Part shown: positions 44,512-56,434 of the stretch, in pieces
Layout: each line of letters opens with the position of its first letter
Numbering within the stretch: position 1 is the first letter of the stretch
NCBI GenBank assembly: GCA_033220425.1
Contig: CM065647.1
Coordinates: 3,844,001-3,908,000 of the forward strand
Direction of reading: 5' to 3'
DNA: 64,000 bases
Origin: Lepraria neglecta
Taxonomy: Eukaryota; Ascomycota; Lecanoromycetes; Lecanorales; Stereocaulaceae
Made by a program: the position numbers and the translations under genes
The notes under the pieces: generated by a model
The model's input: the letters and a program-made list of their open reading frames with translations, nothing else
What the model was told of the DNA's origin: nothing
The model's database searches: none

Positions 44512-45700
44512 TGGCGGAGGGAATCGTTTCGGGTACTGAGCCTTTGGCGTGTTTTGAGTCGTGGTTTTCTGCAATAGAAATGCTTGGCTTAGGATTTATG
44601 AAATCTTCCCAATCCTCGTGTTATCGTCGTTCAAATTTTTATATGCAATCGGATGTTCAAACAACTAAAGATCCTAATATAGTGTTGTGGTTGTATGACT
44701 TTGATGTTCCTTTAGTTTTGATGCTCCCTGCTAAGCCACGAGTCCTTCATTCGTGTGATAGTCTTGCGCCTCTATCGAAATAAATAGAATGTATTCCCAA
44801 ATCTCCTCTCATTATACTCCAGCGCGAGGACACCAGGTCTTGTCCTAAATTCCAATGTCAGCTTCTCCCACCTTTCTAGTTGTCTGAAAAAGTCTCAAGT
44901 ACCTCTAATCAGCTGATGTTATACAAGTATAGCTCGACTTTTTCGTTAAGCATGTTTTGAAATTCTCTTCCATCGAATCGAGGCCGTGCGCTATGTCGGT
45001 CGGGCTGGAACACGTTCGCCGCTTCGGGGATCGCTATTATCTCAGGGTCAATACCTATAGTATCAACACAACATCCATAATATCCACCAGAAAAATCATC
45101 GATGCGGCGGCATTGACAAATTTTGTCTGCTATCAGAATCATATGGGCTTTTGTCTACTGTGATAAAAGCTACCAGAGAAGAGATATTTGCGCACAAGCT
45201 AAGGCTGCAAATGATGAATCAGCAATCAGGCTAGCTTTAGACAAAGTGATCCTCTCCAGGTATCTGATTCCAGCTGGCCTGAGTGGTTCCCTTTTGATCT
45301 CCTGGCTTAGTGTTAATCCAGTACTAAAACATGACAATCTATTCGTGAATTCAGGCCCCCCGTCGCACTCACTACAATTACAGCATTTCTTCTACACTTT
45401 GAAATTGATATTTTGTAAGTCGAAATAGAGGATATACATGACGTTGGAATCAAGTGCGTCAACGCAAGTGCTTAGCCCTTCCATGCTCCGCACGTTTACT
45501 TCACCACTTGGTACAAGAAGCTGGGAGAAGCTCCCCCCTGCTCCCCCGTGCTCCCTTCGCGCTCCTCTTCTCTTGCCTAGTGCTGCCCCTCCTCCCTCAA
45601 TGCTGCTTCTCGAGCGGCCCTGCTGCCTTCTAAGAACGAAAGCTGGAAGCGGCAAGCCTCTGTGTTCGGGGAATTATACAATATGTACATATATATATAC
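44512..45700. other. Convergent intergenic region
   Basis: The NmrA-like gene (plus) and the large fusion gene (minus) converge here. Open frames such as plus 44957-45163 and 45438-45878 have no recognisable features; I call no gene. Confidence 0.45.
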
Positions 45701-48700
45701 CTATTCTATCTTACTCTTCACCCCTTTATCCCTCGCAACATGCGCAAAGGGCAACCAAAACAACGACAACAAAACCACAACAGCAAAGAAAGGCACAGAA
45801 GCATTTTGCCAGTCAGTAGGCCACTTCTTCAACCAAAGTCCCCAAAACGCCAACGGTCCCGCAAGAATCAGCAAATGATACAACGCAACTTTATAAAACG
45901 ACACACCAAACACGGCATTTATCCCCCACGCCTCATCTACTTCTTCGTCGCGGTCAGTCTCCCACTTCCTTCGTCGTTTAGGAAGACGATCTAAGACTCG
46001 GTATTTGCCGCAGTGGTTGCGGCCTTGGCATTCGTGGAAGAGCGAGAGGATGTCGAGGTGGAATTTTATGCAGGCTTTGTTGCAGCCGTAGAAGCTGGTG
46101 TTGAAGACGGTGCTTAAGATGGGAGGGTCGCGGCGGGAGTTATAGTGGTAATCACTGTCTGTCGAGGGCGGTAGCTCTTCTGGACCCTGTAGGATCTCGT
46201 TGGGATTTGCTTTGTGAAACTGTGATTGTCAGCCTTGACATAATTACTTCCTTTGTCTCAACTCCAGGGCCTTACCATTACAAATTCGCAGGTGCGGAAT
46301 TGCCATATTGAAAATATCCACCGCATGTAGCCACGAAGCTTTTTGTACTGTACCATCATCTCGTCAAAGAAGCTGTCGTCGTCTATGAATATTGCGACAT
46401 CGATTTGGGCTAAGCGGAGTCGTGCGTTTCGTAGACGCTTTGCTCCTAGTACACCGAAGAGGATGAATCCTCTCAGCGTGCTGGGCCGGACGATATCTAC
46501 GGCAACACTTCTACCAGGTGGGCGAGCGCCTTTGTCAGGTGTTATTTGGTCATCTGAGCCCTGCTCGTCTTCGGCTTGATCGGAGAGGCTGCCTTCAGAG
46601 GTCACTGAGGAAGATCGATCAGGAGAAGATTGGCTACCAGAGCGTTCACTCGAATTAGTGCTGGAACCGCGGTCGGAGACCACCAGTGCTGTGGGCGTTA
46701 GTTTAGATGAGGCTCCAGCAATCAAGGCATTGTTATCTCCTAGAGTGCTTCCACGCGAAGACTGCTGGAATGAGGTGACGTTTACCCTTTGCAGTTCCGA
46801 CGAATGTGTGTGTTCCAACTTCTGTTTGGCCTTAGCGTCTATTTAGCAGCAAAAATCTAAACCAATGTACTTACGCAACTCCACTTCACTCGGACGTCAC
46901 TGGGCTTGAGCTGTCTGTACCTTGGCTCAAAAGGCCACCAGTCCCATGACTCTGCGGTCACATCTTCTATATAGCCTTTCATCGAATTGGCGATAGTGTA
47001 CTCTTCACCATCACATATGTGTATATTGGCGGGATATTTCGAAGTCCTATGATCCATTCTGGTAGCTGCTGTTGGCACACTGCTTTCCGTCATGCTTGAT
47101 GTCTCCTCAGTCGAATCGCAAATACTGGATTTGCTCAGAGCATCGGCGTCAATGATGAGTGAGGATTGGTTCCGTGAGTCCTGGATCGCACCTAGGTCCT
47201 GCTCTTCGACTGTGGAACTCACTGCTATGCTATCAGCGGCTGGAGCGTTTATTACACCTTCGCTGATGGCGTTTTCAGTGATGACAACGCTTTTGATGGG
47301 TGTAACCATATTTTCTTGACGTAACGCAGAGCCGTCCAAAGTATTCGCCTCACTCTCATCGACCAGAATCCCGACGATAGACTCTCCCAAAGTCCTGTCC
47401 CAATCGACCCACGGATGGACCTTATTGAACAATCTTTCGCCCACGTCCACTCTTCCAGCAGCTCTCATCAGTTGATTCTCACCTCCCGGGTGGAATTTCA
47501 TGAATGGCGTCAAATCATAGACCTTCCCCTGCCACACGCCCCATGCGTCTTTCCCGTTTCTGCCATTATGCTGTTGAAGTAGAGCGGACGAGACATACAT
47601 AGATTGAGATGATAGACTCTCACTGGGAAGGACGGCGGGCATGGGTGAGCTGTCAAACAATAGTACCCAGTTATGAGGGGATTCACCCGGGTCGAGGAAT
47701 CCCAAGTCTGAAGGGCGGGAAACATAGTTTGGGCTATTATTGCCGCGGAATTTGAATGGTTGACGGCGACTGCGATCCGAGGATCGATCCGGCGATAGGA
47801 ACGATAATTGCTGAGCCTCACCGGTCTCAATCAGGCCAAAATTTTGCAAGTTAGCTTCGGTAATGGCAGGAGTTCGATCGACACGAGGGTTGCTTCCAGG
47901 TGAGAAAATCGAATAACTACGCCGGGGTAATGGGGGCGGGAGAGACATGGTTGCTAGAGAAGAGGTTGTTGAGGGAGCAGGTGGGCGAGAGGGCGGGGTT
48001 GCTAAGGATAGAGGTGCGCGAAGATCAATCTTTAGCAGGTCAGACATTGGCTTCGACTCTAGTGTTGGCTCGTTGTCAGTCTTAGTGGCACTAGTATGAC
48101 TGTAGTGTCCAGAGCCGCGAAGTTTGTTACGAGCGATCCCAAGCTTCTTGAAATCGGGCCTCCGTCCTTCTCTTGTTGCTGTCTCTTTGATCTCTCGTAC
48201 GAGGTTCTCTGCTTCAAGCTCTCGCTTCCCATATGAAGTACCTTGCCTATCAATGATGGTTTTCGACCGTTTATCTTCAGAGTCTGTCCTCGAGCCAGAA
48301 CGCCGTTCGTCTATTTCGAACTGGTCCCATTGCACCCCTGTGATGTGTTCTTTCTGCCAAGTCTGCGAGGGATGCTCAGTTTCTGATTTTTTCATCGGGC
48401 CTGCACGTCCATGCATTGGATGTTCATGCCCCGCCACGGCCGTCAAAGGCTGCTCCTCATCCAGCAGACGCCCAAGCATATGGCTCGTCATTGTAACGTT
48501 CTGCATCTTGCACAACCTATCTATCGGTGTCGGCTCCTCCTTATACACGCTCAGCTTAGCGGCGCTATTACTTCCACACTCCAGTGCATCTGCTAAAGCT
48601 TCTTCATCAATAAGTGAGCTATTCGCCATATTGATAACACGAGCGCCACGGGGAAGTAGAGCAAGAGTGCGCCGGTTAAGTAGAGGACCGCTTGCAGCGG

Positions 48701-50741
48701 TAGTCATTGGGACGCTAGCTATTAGGACGCATTCGCTTTGTCGAAACATGTCATCTCGATTACCATAGAATGTAGCCCCAACTTGGTCTTCTTGCTCGTA
48801 TGGCTTTCTTGTCACATCATGATATAAGATCTCCATATCAAATACCGCTCTGGCTTTTTTGGCAATTGCGAACCCTATACCGAGAATATGCCCGCGTGGA
48901 TTATCAGATTTGAGGGCGATTTGGTTGTAGGCTTTCATCCATTGAGAAGATTTGCTTGAGCGTGCGGCTATAGAGGACCAGTACGTGTTGCGGAAGACGG
49001 AAATTATGTACCAGAGAGCCGTATCGGCAACGGATTCGATGGAAGCGCCGTCTGGGAACATATACATGGAGGTTTTCTCTTCGTTTGAAAGATGAACCTC
49101 GCTGATTCGCGTCTCATCTATCTTCTCCCGGTAGTCCTTCGAATACTCGAGAAACACTCTAAGGTCAAGCAATAGTAGCCGTCCAGATTCGCAAAATTTC
49201 ATCAGCTCCGCAAATTCCTGATGCATTATCATTGTAGGCTTGACAGTCTTGGAATCCACGGGCGTTGACAGCGCTCGAGAATGCTGGACCAATTCTGATG
49301 GTTTGGATGTTCTAGACTGGCCAGACTTAGACATTCTCCGCTCGCATTCATCATGAGCTAAGTGCCCAGCCAGAGCCGTTTCTCTACTGAAGCCTGCACC
49401 ACAGCGAGGACATAAAAATTTGGGTTTCGGTATGATTTGAGCATTCTCGCGCTGATGTTTGGAAAGATCACCGAGTGGGTCCCACAGTCTGACAGTCTTG
49501 TCGTAGGATGCAGAGGCTAGAAGCTTGCCGTCAGGCGAGAAGACGACCGCGTTGACCGAATCTGAATGGCCTTCAAGCGTGCCGCGTGAGGCTCTTGTGG
49601 CTGGGTCCCACAGTCTGATAGTCTTATCCCAGGATGCAGAGGCTAGAAGCTTGCCGTCAGGCGAGAAGACGACCGCGCTAACCGAACTTGAATAACCTTC
49701 AAGCGTGCCGCGTGAGGCTCCTGTAGCTGGGTCCCACAGTCTGACAGTGTTATCCCAGGATGCAGAGGCTAGAAGCTTGCCGTCAGGCGAGAAGACGACC
49801 GCGCTAACCGAACCTGAATAACCTTCAAGCGTGACGCGTGAGGCTCTTGTAGCTGGGTCCCACAGTCTGATAGTCTTATCCCAGGATGCAGAGGCTAGAA
49901 GCTTGCCGTCAGGCGAGAAGACGACCGCGTTGACCGATTTTGAATGGCCTTCAAGCGTGCCGCGTGAGGCTCCTGTAGCTGGGTCCCACAGTCTGACAGT
50001 GTTATCCCAGGATGCAGAGGCTAGAAGCTTGCCGTCAGGCGAGAAGACGACCGCGTTGACCGAATCTGAATGGCCTTCAAGCGTGCCGCGTGAGGCTCTT
50101 GTGGCTGGGTCCCACAGTCTGATAGTCTTATCCCAGGATGCAGAGGCTAGAAGCTTGCCGTCAGGCGAGAAGACGACCGCGCTAACCGATTTTGAATGGC
50201 CTCCAAGCGTGCCGCGTGAGGCTCCTGTAGCTGGGTCCCACAGTCTGACAGTGTTATCCCAGGATGCAGAGGCTAGAAGCTTGCCGTCAGGCGAGAAGAC
50301 GACCGCGCTGACCGAACTTGAATAACTTTCAAGCGTGCCGCGTGAGGCTCCTGTAGCTGGGTCCCACAGTCTGATAGTCTTATCCCAGGATGCAGAGGCT
50401 AGAAGCTTGCCGTCAGGCGAGAAGACGACCGCGTTGACCGATTTTGAATGGCCTTCAAGCGTGCCGCGTGAGGCTCCTGTGGCTAGGGGAAGTTGGCGCC
50501 TATTGCATCCGCGGTGCCAGCATCGTTTCTCTAGGCAGACTTTTGATAAATGCGCTCTCGGTGGCGAAGCTAAATCGGGTTGACTTTTGTTTTTATCTTT
50601 GTGGGAGGGAGTGTAAGGTCTATCATGGAAGACCACCTCACTTTGACCGAGGAAGGGCTGACCGTCCGCAGTTGCCATAGTGAGGGTCCTTGGGCTTGTG
50701 GGTTTGATGCTCAAGGTTGATAGAAACCGAGAATGATCCAA
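45701..50741 (-). CDS. WD40 - pseudo-2-hydroxyacid dehydrogenase - cytochrome b5 - membrane fusion protein
   Basis: Exons 50741-46875, 46830-46276 and 46219-45701 join in phase to give about 1,646 aa. Modules in order: eight 42-residue WD40 repeats (about 89-424); a C2H2-like motif CPRCGAGFSRETALAGHLAH (about 443); a D-2-hydroxyacid dehydrogenase-like region (about 505-755; ASIESVADTALWYIISVFRN, LLPRGARVINMANSSLIDEE); a cytochrome b5 / Irc21-like domain with heme motif FHPGGENQ (His about 1085); then a fungal membrane module (ESWDWWPFEPRYRQL through YHLLILAGPLAFWGLWLKK) with two helices at the end. The dehydrogenase lacks much of its glycine loop and its catalytic Arg, so it is probably inactive. 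The cytochrome b5 core looks sound. The long unbroken frame argues for one gene, though transcripts could be separate. An alternative start is 50678 (MATADG). Cellular role unknown. Confidence 0.7.
49470..50477 (-). repeat. Eight-unit WD40 tandem array, 126-bp period
   Basis: Eight units of 126 bp encode AVVFSPDGKLLASAS-type WD40 repeats that are almost identical at the DNA level. Differences cluster at the strand position before the conserved core (GHSKS, SYSSS, GYSGS, GHSDS) and in DKTI versus DNTV. DKTI and DNTV alternate through units 1-7, which implies duplication of two-unit (252-bp) blocks. Such high internal conservation is known from fungal HET-E/NWD-type recognition genes. Confidence 0.9.
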
Positions 50742-51191
50742 AGCATAACGTCAACAATGACTACTAGAACTATTTATATGAGCGCTGGCATTTTGTGTAC
50801 AGCAAGGTGGACGAGGTTCGGAGCAGAGGTGGGCAGAATCTCCACCGCAGGCTTCTGAGGCGCAGTCGTACGGCTGTGCTTGGATAGGTTTGGCTTCCAG
50901 CACCAATCAAACCAATCAGAGGCAGCCACACTCACAATTGTGGTTTCTAAAACGTTTTACGATCCAGAAAGTGCCTTACATGTTGAAGTTAGGCGTACCA
51001 ATAATTACAGCAATGATCAGGCTTGACTGCTTCCCGAAAACGTCAGCGTCAACCCTAAGTACCGTCGATTAGGTATTTGGCAACAGCGTCGCCCTTGCCT
51101 CCCCAACCGCGTCCTCAATGGCTTTTCTGACCCTAAATACAGCAGCACTTCGGCTAATAGCCGTTGAAGAAAAAGTCCTCTGCTCTTCTGC
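50742..51191. other. Upstream region of the fusion gene
   Basis: It should hold the promoter of the minus-strand fusion gene. No gene seen. Confidence 0.45.
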
Positions 51192-51635
51192 CAAGGTTTT
51201 CAATGGTGCAAACGGTGCAGTTGGAAACGCAATACACCAACTACACCAACTACACCAACTACAAGATTTAAGCGATGCGTAGTGTAGTTCGAAAGCCAAA
51301 CGATTTTAACCATTAGAACCCGGTGCTGCACTAGTAGTGTAGATGGTTTACCCTTAAGACTACCAGAAGTTTTTCTCGTTCCAGGGACTACTATTTCTGG
51401 CTTCGCGCCGTGTCTGAACCTTAACGCTAAGCCTATCAAGTCAAGATACTAACTAGCTAAATTCGGAAGCTTTAATTATATGATCTACATCCTCTACGTT
51501 AATGGTGCAAACGGTTTAAGTCCACTGTATATATTCAACGGTTTAAACTGCATGAACTACTAAGCAAAAAAAGGCTTAGCTAGTTGGTTCAAACCGCCAA
51601 GCCCTTAAATAGCTGGTGCACCATTAAAAACCTTG
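51192..51635. mobile_element. Candidate inverted-repeat element, 444 bp
   Basis: The left end CAAGGTTTTCAATGGTGCA (51192-51210) and the inverted right end ending at 51635 differ at one of 19 bases. The interior holds a further copy of AATGGTGCAAACGG (about 51502) and a 9-bp triplet repeat ACTACACCA (about 51236-51261). It has no coding capacity. The target duplication is unclear, so element status is tentative. Confidence 0.45.
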
Positions 51636-56194: not shown

Positions 56195-56434
56195 GTGGAT
56201 GTTCGTGGGGGAGATAACATTACGGCTAATTGCCAGAGGTGAGACGCGATTCCAGTGTGAATGTCCAAAGCGGGACGATAGTGATATGACTAATTACCAG
56301 AGTTGAGAGGTGATTCAAAGGTGAATTTTCGAAGGGGGGACATAGTATTATGGCTAGGTAGTTGCCAGAGGTGAGAGGCGATCCAAGCGTGGATTTTGAA
56401 CGGGGGAGATAGCATTATGGTTGACTACCAGAAG
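56195..56434. repeat. Degenerate minisatellite, about four units of 60-68 bp
   Basis: Units begin GTGGAT or GTGAAT, contain GGGGGAGATA or a variant, then ATTATGGCTA or a variant, and end TTGCCAGAGGTGAGA or a variant. Four diverged copies are visible. The array lies directly upstream of the decayed membrane-protein gene. Confidence 0.65.

Follow-up and report, generated by a model that had tools for sequence, protein, structure and literature searches.

The present study analyzes what is likely a composite gene on the minus strand of a 64,000-nucleotide stretch of the Lepraria neglecta genome, called the window below (assembly GCA_033220425.1, contig CM065647.1, positions 3,844,001 to 3,908,000, i.e. 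C2:3844001-3908000 in the contig numbering used here); coordinates without a contig are those of the window, and own-genome searches covered the 42-Mb, 11-contig assembly, whose short introns and NACHT-WD40 receptor genes point to a filamentous fungus. A stop-to-stop frame between 50750 and 46857 holds 1297 codons without a stop, and from the ATG at 50678 to a splice donor at 46874 the first exon (46875..50678) is open over 1268 codons. Exon 2 (46276..46821; 182 codons) and exon 3 (45701..46219; 172 codons and the stop) are added with both joins in phase 0, across introns of 53 nt (GTAAGT..CAG) and 56 nt (GTAAGG..CAG) with the branch-like sites CTAAG and CTGAC, and the frame with these predicted splices, ATG to stop (45701..50678), gives a product of about 1622 amino acids. 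In 300 dinucleotide shuffles of exon 1, with about 50 stops per frame, the longest stop-free run was 261 codons compared with the actual 1268, and the 867 codons 3′ of a WD40 array, all of them open, compare with at most 232 in 300 shuffles. The open spliced frame is real, as a preliminary description made from the letters alone had proposed when it noted a 3.9-kb exon without a stop and two further exons joined in phase; splicing and a single mRNA are predicted. A TATA-like ATATAAATA (50771..50779, minus strand, identified by eye) lies about 95 bases before the ATG.

Protein searches and tblastx against the assembly showed that this frame resembles seven unlinked gene families of its own genome, with source loci on C1, C2 (two places), C3, C5, C7 and C8: a C2H2-like zinc-finger gene (represented by two separate pieces), a NACHT-WD40 NOD-like receptor (NLR) array, a rhodanese/tyrosine-phosphatase gene, a D-2-hydroxyacid dehydrogenase, an ataxin-2-type LsmAD gene, an RLF/NCB5OR-type cytochrome b5 and a two-helix membrane family, the source of both introns. 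From the N terminus, an initial part resembling the gene at C3:4.659 Mb (50484..50678; alignment and shuffles) ends in the first half of a C2H2 finger (CWHRGCNRRQ..), the NLR-type WD40 array lies within that finger (49476..50483; Pfam, repeat and DNA comparison), and the second half of the finger together with the next finger (LSKHQRE..CPRCGAGF..HLAHDEC) follows at 49329..49475, identified by its own-genome match and shuffles. Fragments recognized by protein search, tblastx and the Pfam content of their sources come from a rhodanese and tyrosine phosphatase gene (49137..49277; fuller copy at C2:4.395 Mb; 43% protein identity, E 2.1e-5) and from an LsmAD gene of ataxin-2/Pbp1 type (48168..48341; fuller copy at C2:1.750 Mb; 37%, E 2.4e-7), and between them stands the dehydrogenase fragment (48459..49067; Pfam and tblastx; fuller copy at C8:2.924 Mb; 68%, E 1.6e-71). 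A Pro/Ser-rich linker at 47922..48008 is similar to the linker of the C5 cytochrome b5 gene, weakly so by tblastx and with 13 of 2000 shuffles aligning as well. Within the b5 part, an N-terminal region of the C3 zinc-finger gene (47706..47921; protein search and tblastx) overlaps in its match the first residues of the cytochrome b5 domain (47349..47720; separate gene at C5:0.693 Mb; 56%, E 1.6e-42), and a WDWWPFEP motif (46875..46997; protein search and tblastx) begins the membrane-family module that continues through exon 2, recognized by paralogue comparison, and exon 3. The two zinc-finger-gene pieces match at 58% (E 5.7e-16) and 51% (E 6.6e-6), and exon 3 matches two paralogues at 37% (E 7.4e-22) and 28% (E 2.7e-10).

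Among the source genes, Y_phosphatase, Rhodanese, LsmAD, Cyt-b5 and 2-Hacid_dh_C scored above the Pfam cut-offs, with the zf-C2H2 match of the C3 gene below threshold (20.6 vs 25.2 bits); the two C3 frames appear to be one gene. On the composite frame itself, WD40 (eight stretches), 2-Hacid_dh_C and Cyt-b5 exceeded the cut-offs. When 11 loci were compared by tblastx with 43-53 kb of the window, 10 matched, each piece having its best match in the sense, spliced frame, and one locus (L006) had no match there. The possibility that the pieces are out-of-frame or antisense fragments was rejected, the matches in other frames being nearly all mirrors of the same DNA, with a few stray ones of low identity elsewhere. 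As controls, a 950-amino-acid frame of the window matched only itself at E ≤ 0.001, and an 858-amino-acid stretch gave 28 further matches, the best three spanning about 760-770 query residues, as in one large family. No second copy of the mosaic was found among the best candidates scored in own-genome searches, and no relatives outside fungi among bacterial, archaeal and viral contig collections, which contain no fungi. Judged by its sequence, the locus is a composite (chimeric) gene, i.e. one in which non-homologous source genes are joined in one frame. The preliminary description had placed four modules in this frame, and its WD40 propeller, dehydrogenase, b5 domain and membrane module are all present; it missed the split zinc finger, the phosphatase/rhodanese and LsmAD pieces and the second zinc-finger-gene piece. 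Its interpretation is supported in part: the fusion, the dead dehydrogenase and the membrane end stand, with the mosaic of gene fragments from seven families understated.

The WD40 array is exactly 1008 bp, eight 126-bp repeats that encode 42-amino-acid units with a mean internal identity of 0.94 (DNA, n = 8). It has 90-93% DNA identity with an NLR array at C1:1.84 Mb, and its units are as close to the C1 units (0.912) as the C1 units are to each other (0.917), compared with 0.80 to an array on C4. A two-unit repeating pattern, detected by eye, points to a later growth of the array by two units at a time. In terms of the WD40 fold, the inserted units would extend from strand D to strand C, such that the propeller could close on itself. 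Variable positions of the unit include 14, 17, 33 and 35. In Podospora, one study reports four WD40 unit positions as being under positive selection (PMC1805685); three of the variable positions here coincide with three of those four in our own register, and the fourth is invariant here. The ratio of nonsynonymous to synonymous differences per site inside the array was 1.07, vs 0.81 and 1.26 in two NLR arrays, all based on few differences. The array is of the rapidly evolving NLR type, as expected by the earlier suggestion of a rapidly evolving propeller. The finger is in register on both sides of the array (CNRRQLPL / LGDLSKHQRE vs CNGRQFSTFSNLLRHQRE, equal in length), with no residue gained or lost next to the array relative to the C3 gene; 1 of 2000 shuffles aligned as well with that gene for the left part (50678-50484) and 0 of 2000 for the right (49475-49329). 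The first C2H2 finger is not continuous, being interrupted by 336 residues, and the second scores weakly with zf-C2H2_6 (15.3 bits vs a cut-off of 25). No NACHT/STAND nucleotide-binding domain was among the five Pfam families of the 862-amino-acid part after the array, in exons 2 and 3 (no families) or among the 25 of 56 families listed for exon 1, nearly all of them propeller models. Of the array-bearing receptor genes, that on C4 matches NACHT above the cut-off, and the partial receptor stretch on C1 has NPHP3_N above and NACHT below it. The array is N-terminal in the composite gene, whereas NLR arrays are C-terminal.

Elsewhere in the assembly, no second mosaic was found around eight further WD40 loci (seven with translated frames), which are NLR-type genes or relics; these were drawn from 103 matches listed, most of them not viewed. 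WD40 arrays at C6:1523230-1524126 and C9:44191-45365 (L049, L055, L057) are rich in TAG and TAA stops, which could be an outcome of repeat-induced point mutation, and the array of the window is stop-free. At C4:1776778-1780623 (L019-L023), in-frame runs of (ASDD)n-like repeats break NLR WD40 units inside a blade. A locus of the same WD40 subfamily at C2:2020750-2021061 (L058) has broken units within a short frame and is perhaps a displaced piece of array or an NLR relic.

The dehydrogenase piece had been described as dead, and it has indeed lost the GxGxxG dinucleotide loop (a 6-residue gap at IIGLGN) and the catalytic Arg (ARG to ANS), with a Glu and a His of the catalytic Arg/Glu/His set still aligned. 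Its closest Protein Data Bank (PDB) match is 2w2k, a D-mandelate-type D-2-hydroxyacid dehydrogenase, from which it differs in lacking the loop, the Arg and the segment that the C8 gene encodes in its exon 1; it begins within about two codons of the start of C8 exon 2 (by eye), and exon shuffling is not claimed. The b5 domain (Pfam Cyt-b5, E 8.4e-14) belongs by sequence to the RLF/NCB5OR type, its best PDB matches being plant RLF (8tgb) and cytochrome b5 reductase 4 (3lf5), with which HPGG and VHPWV align. Both axial His ligands are kept, in line with the heme domain recognized earlier, and heme binding is predicted from them. Irc21 is linked to this type as well. Unlike the separate C5 copy, a 334-amino-acid frame with an N-terminal hydrophobic stretch (by eye), the domain here is embedded in a mosaic, and no reductase domain was found in the composite frame by Pfam. 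Exons 2 and 3 matched no Pfam family at E ≤ 1. The module has two paralogues on C7, at 3.085 Mb (no Pfam family in its exons 2 and 3, and a weak zf-BED below the cut-off in its first exon) and at 0.435 Mb (none in two frames). From gene models made by eye, the intron 1 donor is common to all three genes and intron 2 to two of the three. The motif, the intron positions and two C-terminal hydrophobic stretches (by eye) place the module in what we call the WDWWPxxP membrane family, and the two-helix membrane end anticipated in the preliminary description was recovered.

Codon usage was scored as log-odds trained on 5907 codons from ten other frames of the window, nine of which score 0.12-0.19 and the tenth -0.03 on their own training data. 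Exon 1 was divided into 13 segments, of which 10 score 0.10-0.18 in the frame of the gene, among them spacers 2, 3 and 4, and both remaining sense frames score below zero throughout; exon 2 scores 0.10 and exon 3 0.06. For the dehydrogenase piece and the C8 gene, nonsynonymous (dN) and synonymous (dS) divergence were 0.24 and 1.24 by NG86 and 0.26 and 1.10 by YN00, with dN/dS values of 0.27/0.66 and 0.34/1.36 for the C3-type pieces and 0.42/1.14 for LsmAD. With dN below dS in the computable pieces, much of the divergence accumulated under constraint on the protein, whether this preceded capture or followed it.

Patterns detected are consistent with one composite gene produced by serial in-frame insertions 5′ of a membrane-module gene, a reading that we consider fairly likely, and the gene is probably still translated. 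This is founded on the fragment origins, the single spliced sense frame, the integer repeat number, intron conservation and codon usage in most segments. Several observations weigh against it. Three of the 13 exon-1 segments are not coding-like (N-part -0.05, rest of the finger 0.02, b5 linker -0.13), and in segments under 200 bp an antisense frame scores above that of the gene, namely in spacer 2 (0.20 vs 0.135), the b5 linker and, slightly, the N-part. The left half of the finger alone finds only itself genome-wide at E ≤ 1, dS is saturated in three of seven pieces (b5, phosphatase and the exon-1 membrane piece), introns may be hidden inside exon 1, and an ATG at 47948 in a fair start context (by eye) permits a shorter, separate product. 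Finally, we counted sites at which an outgroup agrees with the paralogue and not with the window, against sites at which it agrees with the window and not with the paralogue. Such departures numbered 18 vs 5 (window vs paralogue) in the dehydrogenase and 11 vs 5 in b5, and with two agreeing outgroups 9 vs 3 of 72 sites and 6 vs 1 of 37, respectively; in the membrane exons, with the second paralogue as outgroup, they numbered 13 vs 20 (exon 2) and 23 vs 17 (exon 3). In the dehydrogenase and b5, conserved residues have been lost faster than in the paralogues, and therefore constraint was relaxed in parts.

An alternative explanation, which we regard as unlikely, would be two genes in one continuous frame, with zinc finger, WD40, phosphatase, dehydrogenase and LsmAD upstream and a b5-membrane gene of about 712 amino acids starting near the ATG at 47948. 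That ATG has an A at -3 and lies close to where the second zinc-finger-gene piece begins (by eye). A division of this kind would fit the retention of the b5 heme ligands and the rate of change of the membrane exons, which do not clearly outpace their paralogues, with the dehydrogenase upstream dead. However, there are no in-frame stops ahead of this ATG, so the upstream gene could reach a stop only through a splice that was not seen, and the LsmAD piece and both flanking spacers are coding-like in the same frame (0.135-0.164). The preliminary description had named polyadenylation signals between modules as something to look for, and the sole sense-strand AATAAA/ATTAAA in 45.6-50.7 kb sits at 47253, within coding sequence, though polyadenylation signals in fungi are weak.

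An untranslated or dying mosaic, in which gene fragments came to lie together and the frame is open only because their sources were coding, seems to us improbable. It would account for a dehydrogenase without its loop and catalytic Arg, for the split finger and for the faster loss of conserved sites, but not for 1622 codons that are free of stops although the non-array pieces differ from their nearest genes at about one third to two thirds of residues, nor for the pieces sharing one spliced frame, and the membrane-exon counts given above likewise speak against it. Considerable age is suggested by protein identities of 28-68%, as would be expected if this were an old conserved multidomain family of a fungal group with the separate genes as distant relatives rather than donors; yet the counterparts of the pieces are different genes, located on other contigs or far away, and the two pieces from the C3 gene stand in reversed order, with one inside the b5 part, such that we consider this quite improbable. 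An assembly join, which the preliminary description had allowed for, is most improbable, as protein identity between the non-array pieces and the nearest loci does not exceed 68% and the spliced frame continues through every joint.

Under a composite origin, the ancestor would have been a fungal membrane-family gene with the WDWWPxxP motif, two introns and two C-terminal hydrophobic stretches, which was extended at the 5′ end of its coding sequence as copies of pieces of six or more unlinked cellular genes were inserted in frame, one after another, each step being filtered by selection for an open frame. The donors would be C2H2-like zinc-finger, phosphatase, D-2-hydroxyacid dehydrogenase, LsmAD and cytochrome b5 genes and a NACHT-WD40 receptor, from which eight whole WD40 repeats would have been placed inside the zinc finger. 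An integer repeat number would be expected if the array came as a circle cut from an NLR array, i.e. extrachromosomal circular DNA (eccDNA), or via repeat exchange; after entry it would have expanded in two-repeat steps. The ability of eccDNAs to reinsert is stated in a study of a fungus (PMC9694575). The product would be anchored in the membrane by its C-terminal helices and carry a heme-binding b5 domain and an eight-bladed propeller with an NLR-type binding surface, with the dehydrogenase, phosphatase, LsmAD and zinc-finger pieces as linkers only. A membrane-tethered sensor, as had been proposed, is possible, although we hold a sensor function of the composite protein to be doubtful. Decidedly unlikely, in our estimate, is the farther-reaching idea that complete NLR recognition propellers are a transferable cassette in this fungus, tolerated in unrelated genes because the two ends of the propeller meet, and that this gene is a functional membrane-anchored, heme-containing non-self sensor made from pieces of ordinary genes. 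If true, an exact closed WD40 set would give new proteins a ready-made recognition surface. Composite genes are already known; here one frame draws on seven unlinked families and has a zinc finger split by an exact NLR propeller. Such a locus would show that new genes can be assembled by serial in-frame insertion and that WD40 arrays, hypervariable in the immune receptors of fungi, are able to leave their own family. Since this genome also contains the likely source genes, the order and age of the insertions could be worked out from sister species.

The array resembles the HNWD (het-d/het-e) NACHT-WD40 NLR genes in its 42-amino-acid units of high internal identity and differs from them in that its host gene is not an NLR, its site is a zinc finger, its units number exactly eight and no NACHT domain was found. 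In Podospora, WD40 units are exchanged within and between NWD family members (PMC1805685, PMC4986451), the exchange described there being among members of that family. Cellular genes or pieces of them have been carried to new places in Pyrenophora (a histone H3-like gene, as an in-frame chimera) and by Pleurotus helitrons (PMC3538342, PMC4289320). The present locus is similar to such transduplication or transposon capture in its relocated pieces of cellular genes and, as in Pyrenophora, its in-frame chimera, but here pieces from seven families share one frame and a second copy was not found. No inverted repeats of at least 16 nt flank the locus within 44.5-52.5 kb, which has one 20-nt palindrome only; transposase and helitron helicase were not searched for. 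No report of this architecture was found by title or start of abstract in a limited open-access collection.

Dispersed repeats flank the gene on both sides, and we do not claim that they belong to it. Upstream, 51543-51635 (and 51192-51347) contains a dispersed repeat of about 90 bases present at no fewer than 20 places in the genome, those on C1, C5 and C8 matching a longer stretch. Immediately after the stop codon, 45530-45701 has 70-79% matches at five dispersed places on C3, C4 and C1. Farther away in the window, at 56226-56419, there is a 64-bp tandem repeat in three copies.

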